From a virus: 64,000 bases of DNA. The notes under the pieces are model-generated. The model saw nothing but the letters and a program-made list of their open reading frames with translations. It was not told the origin of the DNA and did no database searches. Shown piece after piece: positions 5,964-47,488 of the stretch; the first letter of the stretch is position 1; each line of letters begins with the position of its first letter. The stretch lies in the IMG/VR virus record IMGVR_UViG_3300020157_000005, positions 1-64,000 of that record, one strand, 5' to 3'. A program made the translations under genes and the position numbers.

Positions 5964-8873
5964 CTAATATTTTGATAACCACTTCTTGTTAATTGCTCCA
6001 CCGTATTGTTTCTTAACTGGATTTGCCGATGGTATAATACCTGTATTTTTGTAAAAACTATTAACCTTGTTTATTAAACTGCTCTGTTTTTTCTCATCTT
6101 CTATCCTCTTTTGTCCAGATTTTGAGTACTTCCTAAAAGGGTGTTCGTTATCTTCTCCGCTTCCAGATGTAATGTAACCATTCTTATAGAGACCATATGC
6201 ACCAATAACCCCTAAAGCCCCTGCTTGTACTTTAGCAAGATTCACTAAAGTCTTTCTCATCGCATGTGCCCGTGCTATTCTTTGAGAGAGTTTATACTGT
6301 TCATCTTCAAGAGCATATCTCTTATTCATTGATTCATCGTATGCTTTTCTTTCAGATACAGTATATTTTTCAACTTTACCTTTTCTTATTGCATATTGAG
6401 CATTCAGTTGACTTTTAACATCTAATAGCCGTTTATTCATAATTTCATCTGCGCCATTAAGAATATTTGTGTACTCCTTAAACTTACCCACACTCATAGT
6501 TTTAAGGTCAGAGGTTGAACGCATTGTTTGATGCATTGCCTGTCTCCTTTGTAGTAATGATTTAGTGGAGGGCATATCCTTACTTAAAGCATATAATAAA
6601 GCATCTACTCTATCATCAAAATTACCTAATGTAGATGCGTAGGATGAATTTCCATATGTACCATTTGTTACAACTCTAATACCCGTTGCTTTAGATACTT
6701 CATCAAGTACAGCCTTAGCTTGAGGTTTATTTGCAAGGTGTTCTATGAGTGTTCCTGGACTTCTTACATTTGCCAAACCCCATTCAACTCCATGGTCTTC
6801 CATTATATTCGCTACCTTTGTCGCCTCATCTGCAGTAAACTTTATTTTCCCATCAGTGGCTTTTCTTATACTTAATGTATAGGAGAGAGGGTCTTCTTTA
6901 TTTAAAAGATTATTTATACTAACTTGTTTATGACTGTATACAGCCATACCATGCTGTGAGTCACCGAGGAGAACGTGATTTAATCCAGCCCCCATATTCT
7001 GTCCTCCCTTACCTGGTGCCCAATTCTTTAATGCCTCCTCTATATTATTATCGTTATTAACACTTCTACTCAGTGTAGTTTGGTTCATAAAAAAGTCATT
7101 CAATACAAGTTGCATCCTCTTAGGATCTGCTGCAATATGTTCATTGTTTCCAATGAAGTTCATTGAGTTAAGTATTTTATGATTATTTTCAACATCAGAT
7201 AATTGAGCTGGATCAAATTGGTGACCAATGTTCCCCTTGGAACCAACTAGTTTCTGCATATATTGTTTCTGTGCCTCCAATACTTTATCAGGGTCTGCAA
7301 GATGTATATACTGATCAATCTTTGTTATATGCTTATTTTTAGTACTTTCATAAGCATCCATTATAGTCTTGATTGTAGGATCCGTCTTTGCAATAAGTTC
7401 ATCAGCTGTATACGGAATGTGTAGCGGTTTGTCTGTCTTAATACTATTCCTTGCTGCTTCTGCAAACTCATCTGGAGCAAATTGATGGAATAACTCACTA
7501 GCCCTGTCTCCTGTCGCATAACCATTCTCATCTTGTTCAATTACATTGAAGTCAATTTCTCCAGCTTTACCTAACTTAGAATCTATTGTATGTGTTTGTG
7601 CCAGACCCGTATTCTGAATAAATGGTAACTTATCCTTTACATTCTTATCATAGTTTGTTTTGGATATAAGTACATCATAATCTCCAACCACATGAGGGAG
7701 GTCTGCACTGGCTACACCTTTGGCAGATCCAAACACCTTTCCCCCGGTCAAATTCTCAATGTGATCTACATTACTCTTTACTGTGTTATGATAGTTATTT
7801 TCAATACTTACAGCAGAAATACTCTTATTTTCTGTAGTTACCTCTTTTCCTTTATTTGTAAACTCAGTTACAGTTGAAGGCAGTTCTATTTTAGGAGTTA
7901 CTACTTCTCCTGTCTTGAAGTTTATAATAGGTGTCCCAGTAGTTGGTTTACCAAAAGTTTCATTTGCAAATGCTATCTTCCCATCATCAGTTATACTTGC
8001 TGCCTCTTTAATGGTACTTGCATTACTTATAGCCTTCTCCTTAGCATAAATACTATTATAAAGTGGATTTATACTGTTGCGATTATCTGAAAGCTGGTTA
8101 AGCATACCATCCAGCTTATTTTCCTTTATATTTAATGCATATCGAGCTTTATTTATTTCATCAACTGCTTCCCTATGTTTTTGATACAGGTTCTCAAAGT
8201 CCTTATCTAAACCACTTATCTTGTATGGAGTAGCCGCATCTTTTACAGATTGAGGTATTGCATCAATAGTTTTTTCCCCATATTTTTTTAACCAGTTTGG
8301 TAAAAATGAAGATTTCGCTACCTGAGTACCTTCAGGAAGATATGATGCAGTTTTTGCAGCAATAGCCGCATTTGCTTTTATATAACCTTTTGCTGCAGTT
8401 TTTCCTAAATTGTATAACCCTTCAGCACCTTCAGCAGCAGTACCTGCATCAATTATCTTTTCTATAAATTCATCAGCTCTTTGACCTTTGTTGTCTTCTT
8501 TTGCCCATTTGGTGTATCCTATAGGATTACCTTGATCATCTCTTCCTGCATCCCTGTTCATCTCATGCAATCTTTGTGCATGTTCTTCTTGTCCATATGG
8601 TGTATATACCGGTGCTGGTCCCATATGCTGAGACATAATATATTCTTGTTGTTTCTGTATATCAGCTTGTACAGCTTCATCATCAGCTCTTTTCTGAGTA
8701 TACTTCAATAATGCATCAACTTGTTTCTGGGACATCTTTTGACCAGGTACATTAGCAGTAGTTGTTCCTACAGATATACCTCGTATTGGTTGTGTAGGTA
8801 CAATAGCAGTTTGGTCAGGACTCCATTGGAGCTTGTCACCATCTTTAGCATACTTTGTTAACCACTTTGCCAT
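5964..8873 (-). CDS. Large virion protein with a putative nucleotidyltransferase-fold domain (969 aa)
   Basis: A 969-residue protein lying between the stabilisation gene and another giant cargo-type gene. Residues 230-290 look helical. Around 380-445 the pattern GSAKG (382-386), then DYDVLI (398-403), then EIDFNVI (439-445) matches the nucleotidyltransferase signature: a GS turn, a D-x-D metal pair and a third Asp on a following strand. The fold assignment is my inference. A hydrophobic segment lies near the C-terminus (around 895-920). The protein ends with QYGGAINKKWLSKY, which echoes the GG motifs of its neighbour. Codons are more AT-rich than in the flanking structural genes, suggesting separate ancestry. 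It is probably packaged and ejected; a plain structural role remains possible. Confidence 0.7.
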   Translation of the reverse strand: MAKWLTKYAKDGDKLQWSPDQTAIVPTQPIRGISVGTTTANVPGQKMSQKQVDALLKYTQKRADDEAVQADIQKQQEYIMSQHMGPAPVYTPYGQEEHAQRLHEMNRDAGRDDQGNPIGYTKWAKEDNKGQRADEFIEKIIDAGTAAEGAEGLYNLGKTAAKGYIKANAAIAAKTASYLPEGTQVAKSSFLPNWLKKYGEKTIDAIPQSVKDAATPYKISGLDKDFENLYQKHREAVDEINKARYALNIKENKLDGMLNQLSDNRNSINPLYNSIYAKEKAISNASTIKEAASITDDGKIAFANETFGKPTTGTPIINFKTGEVVTPKIELPSTVTEFTNKGKEVTTENKSISAVSIENNYHNTVKSNVDHIENLTGGKVFGSAKGVASADLPHVVGDYDVLISKTNYDKNVKDKLPFIQNTGLAQTHTIDSKLGKAGEIDFNVIEQDENGYATGDRASELFHQFAPDEFAEAARNSIKTDKPLHIPYTADELIAKTDPTIKTIMDAYESTKNKHITKIDQYIHLADPDKVLEAQKQYMQKLVGSKGNIGHQFDPAQLSDVENNHKILNSMNFIGNNEHIAADPKRMQLVLNDFFMNQTTLSRSVNNDNNIEEALKNWAPGKGGQNMGAGLNHVLLGDSQHGMAVYSHKQVSINNLLNKEDPLSYTLSIRKATDGKIKFTADEATKVANIMEDHGVEWGLANVRSPGTLIEHLANKPQAKAVLDEVSKATGIRVVTNGTYGNSSYASTLGNFDDRVDALLYALSKDMPSTKSLLQRRQAMHQTMRSTSDLKTMSVGKFKEYTNILNGADEIMNKRLLDVKSQLNAQYAIRKGKVEKYTVSERKAYDESMNKRYALEDEQYKLSQRIARAHAMRKTLVNLAKVQAGALGVIGAYGLYKNGYITSGSGEDNEHPFRKYSKSGQKRIEDEKKQSSLINKVNSFYKNTGIIPSANPVKKQYGGAINKKWLSKY

Positions 8874-42108: not shown

Positions 42109-42116
42109 CCTGCACA

Positions 42117-42143
42117 GGGGGACAGAACATCGTCCCCCTTTTT
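42117..42143 (+). terminator. Rho-independent terminator
   Basis: GGGGGAC (42117-42123), an 8-nt loop, GTCCCCC (42132-42138), then TTTTT (42139-42143). The perfect 7-bp GC-rich stem with a U tract is the clearest terminator in the window. Confidence 0.9.
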
Positions 42144-42177
42144 CCATCTCTTCTCAGCCATTAGAGTAGCATCTTAT

Positions 42178-42253
42178 ATACAGTCAGTTGTAGTTCTAGT
42201 CCAGATGTGAGCAATCACTAAACAGGTGAAGTCCGAACTACAGTTGGCTGTAT
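42178..42253 (+). ncRNA. Structured RNA element with a 19-bp closing helix
   Basis: Bases 42178-42196 pair with 42235-42253 without a mismatch: 19 bp including 3 G-U pairs. The enclosed 38 nt hold a small hairpin GTGA-GCAA-TCAC (42207-42218) with a GNRA tetraloop, and a twice-occurring AGTCC. It lies between a terminator and the gene at 42317, so it could be an independent small RNA or a leader. No known family recognised; paired positions are from hand folding. Confidence 0.6.
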
Positions 42254-42316
42254 TCTTTAATGCATCATAACCTGTTATCCGTTAACAACTATTCATCACA
42301 TCATAATATCAATCAT

Positions 42317-42586
42317 ATGCAGCAGTTCATGTCATGCTCCTGGGATGGAATGTCCCTTATAGCAGAGTTAAAGGAAGGAGAGTATAAGTGCATCAGCAAG
42401 TACTCATCAGGCAACCTGACCCAGATCACTAACAATGGTCAACCTCTTCAATGTCTTCGTAGGGTAGCCTACCATGACACCATCGAGGAGGCTCAGAACC
42501 CAGGTAAGAGGGATCGTATGATAAGAAATGGTCAGATGGAGGACCGTTCCATAATATCAGGCAGACCTATGATATATGACTATTGA
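42317..42586 (+). CDS. Hypothetical protein (89 aa)
   Basis: An 89-residue protein starting MQQFMSCSWDGMSLIAELKE. I place the start at ATG 42317, after an AT-rich leader, rather than at the in-frame ATG 42260, which lies too close to the RNA element. The rest is soluble with VAYHDTIEEAQNPGKRDRMI. No family recognised. Confidence 0.5.
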   Translation: MQQFMSCSWDGMSLIAELKEGEYKCISKYSSGNLTQITNNGQPLQCLRRVAYHDTIEEAQNPGKRDRMIRNGQMEDRSIISGRPMIYDY

Positions 42587-42642: not shown

Positions 42643-43074
42643 CTATTACTGTTCATGTGCAGTTATACATAGTGGTTATTCACCTATCTTCAATGGATAA
42701 GGTTTTTCTCCTAGGGTGGAGACAACTTTTTACGTCTGAGAGTATTTTATGCTACCATCTATTAACAATAGTTGGTATGTATAACTGATTTTGAGTGGTG
42801 TATTGAGGGTTAAGGGTAGAATACTATGTCAGTATCGCTGGATATTCCAACATTATTGACCACATATACCAACATATCTGGAAAACCTCGGCCCATCAAT
42901 ATAAGGTCATTGCTGGTTACTGCGTATGTATAGGGTTATAGTAGTAGTGGTATTGGGAGTAGTGTAGGTGTGAGGAGTTAATGGTTAGTTGTTACTGTCT
43001 ACAATGGATTATGTGCTGGTTCGATTCCAGTAGTAGGGTATAGTATTGTTGTTTAATTCATTTATATAGTGTGG

Positions 43075-43089
43075 GCCTACTACAGTGGC
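43075..43089 (+). promoter_or_regulatory. Start-proximal hairpin GCC-u-AC / GU-GGC
   Basis: GCC, a bulged T, AC, a 4-nt loop, GT, GGC. The stem ends 9 nt before ATG 43099. The same stem with another loop precedes the gene at 44775 at the same distance. An upstream CCAGTAGTAGG (43027-43037) can pair with CCTACTAC(ag)TGG instead, so two competing folds are possible. Confidence 0.5.
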
Positions 43090-43098
43090 TGTTATGTT

Positions 43099-43278
43099 AT
43101 GTCATTTAACGAACTTGGTAAAGAAAAAGGAATAGATGAAAGAAAGTTTGAAATACTTACAGACTTATTAGCATCTTTACCTGATGGTTTATTCACAAGC
43201 TGTGATGAGCTTGCAGATTATCTTAGGTTTGCTGCAGATGGTATAGAATCTAAAGATAGATATGCAATGTCAGCTTAA
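43099..43278 (+). CDS. Hypothetical small protein (59 aa)
   Basis: A 59-residue acidic helical protein starting MSFNELGKEKGIDERKFEIL. ATG 43099 is preferred over GTG 43069 because the upstream region forms the conserved hairpin. Codons are more AT-rich than in neighbouring genes (AAAGAAAAAGG and similar), which suggests separate acquisition. Its stop overlaps a hairpin (43277-43335). No family recognised. Confidence 0.55.
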   Translation: MSFNELGKEKGIDERKFEILTDLLASLPDGLFTSCDELADYLRFAADGIESKDRYAMSA

Positions 43279-44041: not shown

Positions 44042-44044
44042 AAG

Positions 44045-44167
44045 GTAGTAGTATAGGTAGGTGATGTGGGTGGGGAAGAACTCGGAGGTCAATAATCAAA
44101 TCTGTGACGATCAGGTGCTCCCTGTGACTGTTGATCCATTACCACATCATCTACCTGTAGTTACTAC
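44045..44167 (+). ncRNA. Structured RNA element with a 24-bp closing helix
   Basis: Bases 44045-44069 pair with 44142-44167: 24 pairs with one bulged G (44160) and a few G-U pairs. The enclosed 72 nt include ATCAA/TTGAT, CAGG/CCTG and two copies of CTGTGAC; their fold is unclear. The closing helix is homologous to that at 45784-45943, with compensatory changes. It lies in the leader of the lipoprotein gene at 44238. Confidence 0.65.
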
Positions 44168-44198
44168 TCTCTCTCTTCAGGGTAGTTTATAAGTGTTT

Positions 44199-44210
44199 AA
44201 GTTCACAAAG
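44199..44210 (+). promoter_or_regulatory. TAAGTTCACA motif
   Basis: TAAGTTCACAAAG precedes the lipoprotein ATG (44238); GTTCAC begins 37 nt upstream. Other copies precede genes at 45424, 48128, 48815 and 51119 by 24-27 nt. Confidence 0.45.
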
Positions 44211-44237
44211 TTTTAAAAGCCAGTTATCTGGAGATGT

Positions 44238-44480: not shown

Positions 44481-44774
44481 GTTCACTTAGGTTACCTTTC
44501 AGCCTTGTCTCTACAGGAAGTAAGTTTGGTCTACAGCAGGGTAATTCCTCGTCTGTAGATATATGTTAATCCTCGATAATGGATGTGTACTTCAGGTATG
44601 CTCCATCAGTGAGTTGATAGAGGCTGTCACAGAGTATCGTGATAACCAGTAGCAGCTCTTCTGTAAATCGTTAGTACCTTACACCTCTATACAACAGTTG
44701 GTTGTGTATGTGTTTTATCTGCAGATTTATTCATTCATATAAGGTGTGTGCCTACCATAAGTGGCTGTTATAGT
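44481..44774. other. 294-nt gap with several hairpins
   Basis: It begins with AGTTCACTTAGG directly after the preceding stop. It then holds TCTACAG/CTGTAGA (44530-44536 with 44553-44559, inner AGG/CCT), AGAG(g)CTG/CAGCTCT and TGTCAC/GTGATA, and an extended hairpin at 44664-44729: TAAATC/GATTTA, ACAC/GTGT, ATACAAC/GTTGT(g)TAT. The hairpin at 44750-44765 lies just before the next ATG. No gene is visible. Confidence 0.55.
44750..44765 (+). promoter_or_regulatory. Start-proximal hairpin GCC-u-AC / GU-GGC
   Basis: GCC, bulged T, AC, loop CATAA, GT, GGC; it ends 9 nt before ATG 44775. The stem and the following CTGTTAT are the same as at 43075, while the loop differs, which argues for a conserved stem. 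Confidence 0.5.
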
Positions 44775-45230
44775 ATGCAAATATTCAGTAATACAACATA
44801 CAAGGTTCAACTGCCAGGTACACAGATGGGTAAATATACTCTCGATGACAAGTATCTGGCACTGGATAATGAGGAGGGACCATTGATGGTAGTGTTAGCC
44901 AGTCATTTCGGTGTTGGTGAGTCTATATCACCTGATGAGCTAGTGATGATACATGATCATAGTGATGATCCTATATCTGGGCCATGGAAACTCTACAGTA
45001 GTAAACAACTGGATAGCAACGAGTTAGTGGATATACTACAGGAATGTATTGGTATGACCATAGAATGCAGCCGTAGAGTAGGTATACTGGGCATTACAGT
45101 AGCATATGAGCCGCATGAACTAGACAAGGTATATGTGATGGACATGAGCACAGGATATGACCGGTGGGAGACATATGCTGATGTAGAGAAAGAACCAGGT
45201 ACATGGGCTATAGAACAAGTAATCAGGTAG
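44775..45230 (+). CDS. Hypothetical protein (151 aa)
   Basis: A 151-residue acidic protein: MQIFSNTTYKVQLPGTQMGK, HDHSDDPISGPWKLYSSKQL in the middle, then ECSRRVGILGITVAYEPHEL. It looks globular alpha/beta. ATG 44775 is preferred over GTG 44748, which lies before the conserved hairpin. The gene is followed by the three-way-junction RNA at 45245. No family recognised. Confidence 0.6.
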   Translation: MQIFSNTTYKVQLPGTQMGKYTLDDKYLALDNEEGPLMVVLASHFGVGESISPDELVMIHDHSDDPISGPWKLYSSKQLDSNELVDILQECIGMTIECSRRVGILGITVAYEPHELDKVYVMDMSTGYDRWETYADVEKEPGTWAIEQVIR

Positions 45231-45244
45231 TAGAGTTAGTTATC

Positions 45245-45374
45245 TGTAGTACCTGTAGTGTCAGCAGTGGTGAGTATGGAGAATTGTACCGCTATAGTAG
45301 TACTCCATATGTGTGGCCGGTAAGGATGCTATAGTCCTTGCCACACATCTGCTGTTGATACTACAGGTACTGTA
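45245..45374 (+). ncRNA. Three-way-junction RNA with potential kissing loops
   Basis: Bases 45245-45270 pair with 45349-45374 in an unbroken 26-bp helix (several G-U). Inside, P2 is 45274-45281 with 45303-45310 (8 bp) and P3 is 45311-45317 with 45340-45346 (7 bp), then a 4-nt bulge and AAGGA/TCCTT (45322-45326 with 45335-45339). The P2 loop has CTATAG at 45292-45297 and the P3 loop has CTATAG at 45329-45334. The hexamer is self-complementary, so the loops can kiss, or two molecules can dimerise. It lies 50 nt before the gene at 45424. No known riboswitch or ribozyme core was recognised. Confidence 0.75.
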
Positions 45375-45397
45375 GTGTAATGTTGTTAGTAATCATT

Positions 45398-45410
45398 AAG
45401 TTCACATTGT
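45398..45410 (+). promoter_or_regulatory. TAAGTTCACA motif
   Basis: TAAGTTCACATTG ends 13 nt before ATG 45424; GTTCAC begins 24 nt upstream of it. Confidence 0.5.
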
Positions 45411-45423
45411 AAATCAAACAGTT

Positions 45424-45690: not shown

Positions 45691-45783
45691 GACAGTCAGC
45701 AGTATCTAAGTAGCTCGACAGCATTAAAATGCTCTGTTGGGCAACTCTATAGGGTTTACGTTGATCCTGAAGTAAGTGTGTAA

Positions 45784-45943
45784 TGTAGATAGGTGGTGTG
45801 GAACAGGTCATTATGAAGTACCTGGAGTCAAACCGGAGCAGAAGTCCTCTCAGTGTGAAATGATATATCACTGACAAGGTAAGGTTGTGGGTAATATTGC
45901 AATAACGTAATATCCATGGTTCCATTCACATCATCTATCTGCA
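45784..45943 (+). ncRNA. Structured RNA, four-way-junction-like
   Basis: Bases 45784-45802 pair with 45925-45943 (19 bp). Inside are CAGGT/ACCTG (45804-45808 with 45820-45824), TCAGTG/CACTGA (around 45850-45855 with 45869-45874) and GGTTGTGG/CCATGGTT (around 45883-45890 with 45914-45921), the last closed by ATATT/AATAT. The outer helix is homologous to 44045-44167: 5' strands share 14 of 19 bases and 3' strands 16 of 19, with compensatory A-U to G-C and G-C to A-U changes. Confidence 0.65.
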
Positions 45944-47402: not shown

Positions 47403-47488
47403 ATGGATTCGGCAAAGAGTAGTGTAGTAGTTAGTTGTTATTAGTTATTGTTCACACAGTCAAGGTGAAGCACTATAACACGATCCAT
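47403..47488 (+). ncRNA. Nested hairpin in the gap 47391-47555
   Basis: ATGGAT (47403-47408) pairs with ATCCAT (47483-47488), TAGTG (47420-47424) with CACTA (47471-47475), and TTCAC (47451-47455) with GTGAA (47465-47469). The helices are short and separated by loops. The TTCAC lies inside a GTTCACAC motif. Lower confidence than the long-helix elements. Confidence 0.35.

Follow-up and report, generated by a model that had tools for sequence, protein, structure and literature searches.

An early intergenic spacer of a crAss-like phage carries a long, very stable stem-loop at a joint where a close relative has retained the stem, replaced the tip, and carries different genes on both sides. Our leading reading, held tentatively, is that of an intercistronic mRNA stem-loop of early transcripts, acting in processing or end-protection at the joints of exchanged genes. 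The working part would be the long double-stranded stem and not the tip, and the element would be one of a small set of stem-loops in early spacers, where relatives exchange genes. If transcribed, the stem may be read as double-stranded RNA and undergo RNase III-type cleavage; alternatively, the intact stem could protect mRNA ends. In either case, the outcome would be that the expression of neighboring gene cassettes is kept separate. To our knowledge, the literature says little about the way in which crAss-like phages separate and process their early transcripts, and long sense-strand stem-loops at exchangeable joints offer concrete sites at which to seek mRNA processing. They also suggest that a stable phage RNA structure can be maintained through replacement of its sequence and tip.

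The window, as the term is used here, is the first 64,000 bases of IMG/VR virus record IMGVR_UViG_3300020157_000005, which has 65,768 bases in full. The record belongs to a crAss-like phage. Among the genes of the window are those for a large terminase, a portal and a major head protein, and the terminase and polymerase find their matches in crAss-like phages, crAss001 and the cr-series genomes among them. Of the annotated records, that of Leptolyngbya phage Lbo-JY46 comes nearest (TerL 37%, polymerase 46%). Genes up to ~40.3 kb, the structural ones, lie on the minus strand, and those beyond, the early and replication genes, on the plus strand. The element occupies the spacer at 45231–45423, flanked by two plus-strand ORFs (Table 1). 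A two-row alignment of TerL, used for scanning, located a second record, IMGVR_UViG_3300021079_000001 (G004; 111,400 bp), with TerL 93% to that of the window and roughly 70–97% nucleotide identity across long alignable stretches. Protein relatives of the two flanking ORFs were found neither in G004 nor in 24 further records. A DNA similarity search of phage and plasmid collections gave chance matches only, and records L002 and L003 have a single gene in common with the window and no comparable spacer.

Table 1. Coordinates of the element, its parts and nearby features in the window, with their state in the relative G004.
Feature	Position	Strand	Remarks
Spacer stem-loop, 19-bp helix	42178–42253	+	Unrelated 18-bp stem-loop there in G004, flanks identical
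Spacer stem-loop, 18 pairs in a row and about 26 in all	44052–44159	+	Helix lost in G004
Conserved module, hairpin and T-rich tail	44681–44749	+	94% in G004
Upstream ORF, 160 aa	44748–45230	+	No relative found; missing beside the G004 copy
Closing stem, 5′ arm	45239–45270	+	45245–45268 identical (24/24) in G004
Whole element, closing stem and two-hairpin tip	45245–45374	+	G004 homolog at C1:104571-104460 (−)
Hairpin 1	45274–45310	+	CTATAG 45292–45297 in loop; G004 keeps only a short TGGA/TCCA stem
Hairpin 2	45311–45346	+	CTATAG 45329–45334 in loop; gone in G004
Closing stem, 3′ arm	45349–45381	+	45349–45369 about 90% identical in G004
Leader TTAAGTTCACATTGTAAATCAAACAGTT	45396–45423	+	Before the next ATG; contains the word AGTTCACA, recurring before other early genes
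Downstream ORF, 88 aa	45424–45690	+	No relative found; missing beside the G004 copy
Spacer stem-loop, 19-bp helix	45784–45943	+	3′ arm resembles that of 44052–44159

The closing helix comprises 26 contiguous pairs (45245–45270 with 45349–45374), exactly the unbroken helix that the initial annotation had described. It grows to 27 bp by addition of the pair 45244/45375 and, when folded in its context (45239–45381), reaches 32 bp, interrupted by a single bulge at 45376. Within it, hairpin 1 pairs 45274–45281 with 45303–45310, and hairpin 2 pairs 45311–45317 with 45340–45346 and 45322–45327 with 45334–45339. The 130-mer has a computed minimum free energy of −64.6 kcal/mol, whereas its shuffles average −37.8 (z −8.0; 0 of 200 as low). 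Among 6388 segments of 140 nt scanned over both strands, the element is the most structured stretch of the window (z −6.4), the next-best other place reaching z −4.2. G-U pairs make up about a quarter of the stem, and because of them the antisense strand folds more weakly (−51.3, z −5.6). The G-U pairs and the sense-biased fold therefore point to a plus-strand RNA rather than a DNA palindrome, and the element most likely acts as sense-strand RNA; a DNA inverted repeat or cruciform was ruled out as the main reading, since the G-U pairs worsen the antisense fold. The main stem has no U-run and was rejected as an intrinsic terminator; a scan places a weak terminator-like hairpin, with a weak consensus match, at 45358–45378 inside the 3′ arm. 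That arm is almost self-complementary over 45361–45376 (ACTACAG GTA CTGTAGT) and could form an alternative small hairpin. No Rfam family matches in the window at gathering or relaxed thresholds; the best sub-threshold scores are 15.7–18.5 bits against cut-offs of 50–100, riboswitches and hammerheads included, in line with the earlier remark that its junction core and loops recall no known member of either group.

Only one homolog of the element was found, in G004, on the minus strand, which is the early sense strand of that phage. Its alignment keeps 24 of the 26 closing-stem pairs; seven stem pairs are changed, five of which still pair through G-U and two of which do not. Stem pairing is 96% as aligned and no higher than 51% once the register is shifted, and the homolog folds at z −5.1 in sense versus −1.1 in antisense. 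Judged from two sequences, the closing stem is conserved as retention, short of proven covariation: the initial annotation had looked to relatives for covarying helices, and what G004 offers is the retained stem with no double compensatory change, that is, no pair altered on both sides. The tip is variable, the G004 copy being without hairpin 2, the CTATAG loops, the three-way junction and most of hairpin 1, and the two phages have different genes on both sides of the element. A covariance model built from the window and G004 copies gave only weak matches (E 0.03–0.8) in ~37 further crAss-like records, so that the search once proposed among crAss-like relatives yielded no convincing homolog there. 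Pattern matches in L195 and L235 lie inside coding regions of unrelated phages and were discarded as chance. No homolog of the element was found in Lbo-JY46, whose early spacers fold only moderately (z −0.4 to −2.4).

With spacers set mechanically from ATG ORFs of at least 60 aa, the window has four helices of at least 18 contiguous bp (42178–42253, 44052–44159, 45244–45375 and 45784–45943), all on the sense strand and all in early spacers; there are none on the antisense strand and none in late spacers, with a shuffle expectation of 0.04. G004 has four such helices, three of them on the sense strand of its early region, where the early set as counted takes in long stretches without ATG ORFs of at least 60 aa. 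Two spacers can be compared closely. At 42109–42317, an intrinsic terminator and flank are identical in both phages, but the stem-loops that come next, 19 bp in the window (z −3.6) and 18 bp in G004 (z −4.4), are unrelated; behind an identical flank, therefore, the long stem is kept and its sequence is not. At 44042–44237, the flanks in G004 are near-identical and the 5′ arm is kept, with the interior and the 3′ arm replaced; the helix is lost, and a stem is therefore dispensable at some spacers. A separate role for the 5′ arms is possible. As far as the two genomes indicate, long stems at early spacers are usually, not always, kept. A stronger proposition would be that the early spacers of this crAss-like lineage each require a long dsRNA stem-loop of free sequence, with entire stem-loops, or only the tips, exchanged for unrelated ones where relatives have near-identical flanks. 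We hold this to be doubtful; if true, it would define a class of phage RNA elements conserved in position and replaceable in sequence, and the swapping could perhaps be driven by an arms race with RNA-targeting defense.

For a processing or end-protecting stem-loop, a close likeness is to the RNase III sites of T7-like phages, which place a dsRNA stem, two to three turns long, on the sense strand between early genes. The stem-loops described here are likewise long, imperfect, on the sense strand and in early intercistronic spacers, and the stem of the element supplies at least about two turns of dsRNA (26–32 bp in the window, 24 of 26 pairs in G004). They differ from the T7 hairpins in that unrelated sequences replace stem-loops between close relatives, and in that cleavage is here something we infer.

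The initial annotation had instead proposed a three-way-junction RNA in which the two CUAUAG loops would kiss intramolecularly or join two molecules. Both hairpins do display CTATAG in their loops, as it had claimed (45292–45297 and 45329–45334), and two GCUAUAGU strands have a pairing energy of about −7.8 kcal/mol. However, the first copy is open only in part: it lies in a loosely folded 21-nt loop, and in many structures some of its bases are paired (unpaired probabilities 0.25–0.75); the final G of the second is paired (unpaired probability 0.03). CTATAG is also common in the genome (53 copies versus 41.5 expected), and a repeated palindromic hexamer arises in 2.2% of interior shuffles and 2% of 78-nt tiles; the matching loops are therefore no more than a mild coincidence. 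The annotation had staked its reading on covarying loop hexamers in relatives, and G004 has neither CTATAG, although its closing stem is present. With the junction, hairpin 2 and both loops missing in the nearest relative, the kissing-loop reading therefore fails the refuting condition that the annotation itself had set, and we consider it very improbable; what stands of the junction claim is a strand-specific phage RNA element. Striking loop motifs of this kind are a warning against assigning function before a relative is checked. The same comparison bears on two known RNAs. Like the window copy of the element, the pRNA of phi29 measures ~120–130 nt and combines a long closing helix with a three-way junction and a pair of complementary loops; unlike the pRNA, however, the element has loops and a junction that are not conserved in G004, lies among early genes, and belongs to a phage with a large terminase. 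With purine riboswitches the element shares three helices and a possible loop-loop contact, but its core and loops are not conserved in G004 and no Rfam match was obtained. A riboswitch-like cis-regulatory leader of the downstream gene is the least probable of the readings weighed here: the element does lie 43 nt upstream of an ATG preceded by a recurring leader motif, but the downstream gene is a different one in G004, the junction core is not conserved, and no Rfam riboswitch matches.

More weight attaches to the promoter early stem-loop (PeSL) cassettes of T4-type phages, reportedly treated in Arbiol 2010 and Comeau 2014. Such cassettes are documented in T4-type phages (PMC4503421), and a haloarchaeal virus has been proposed to carry them as well (PMC3950731). 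The likenesses are stem-loops at many early gene junctions (here the four long helices of the early spacers) and the shuffling of neighboring genes (here the differing flanks in G004). In contrast to PeSLs, the element has a much longer stem, and the cassettes here share no sequence except two similar arms. No promoter was identified in the element; sigma-70-like sites are at chance level, and the AGTTCACA leader motif is perhaps a promoter or leader element. A PeSL-like mobile joint would be selected for DNA-level recombination, its conserved spacers allowing unrelated early genes to be shuffled, and the stem-loop would be incidental or a terminator. Short spacer modules are indeed 94–100% identical between the phages while neighboring genes are swapped: the 69-nt module at 44681–44749 adjoins the target stem directly in G004 and is separated from it by one gene in the window, and modules at 45701–45783 (96%) and 47418–47463 (46/46) stand beside different genes in G004. 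Yet the G-U pairs and sense-biased fold indicate RNA, each genome has one copy of the element, and interiors are replaced, not conserved; we regard a mobile joint of this kind as rather improbable. A free-standing small RNA made or processed from the spacer, such as a decoy for a host dsRNA-binding or defense protein with a fast-evolving tip, would suit the very stable fold, the independence of the element's position from its flanking genes, and the replacement of the tip over a kept stem. However, neither a promoter nor a terminator of its own was recognized in the element (promoter-like sites are no more frequent than chance would give, and the single terminator-like match, on the 3′ arm, has a weak consensus), and stems over 20 bp are normally cut by RNase III; such an RNA seems to us quite unlikely.

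Several smaller observations concern the leaders and spacers of the same region. The word AGTTCACA occurs at window positions 44200, 45399, 48787 and 51093, about 24–37 nt upstream of early-gene ATGs and with an A-rich leader after it; it is perhaps a phage promoter or leader element. Similar leaders of the form GTGTGnGCCTAC...AGTGGCTGTTAT stand at 43069–43100 and 44745–44776, before different genes. A T-arm-like CTGGTTCGATTCCAG lies at 43018–43035, within spacer sequence that G004 matches at 90% identity; tRNA prediction returned nothing there in the window or G004. In Lbo-JY46 (L004), positions 6916–7308 hold a tandem array of about five hairpins with differing stems, a type of array not found in the window or the other scanned genomes. 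In this array the 5′ strand is followed by the constant word ACAGCAAA and the 3′ strand by the constant word TGATAA, and one unit carries a T-arm-like stretch.
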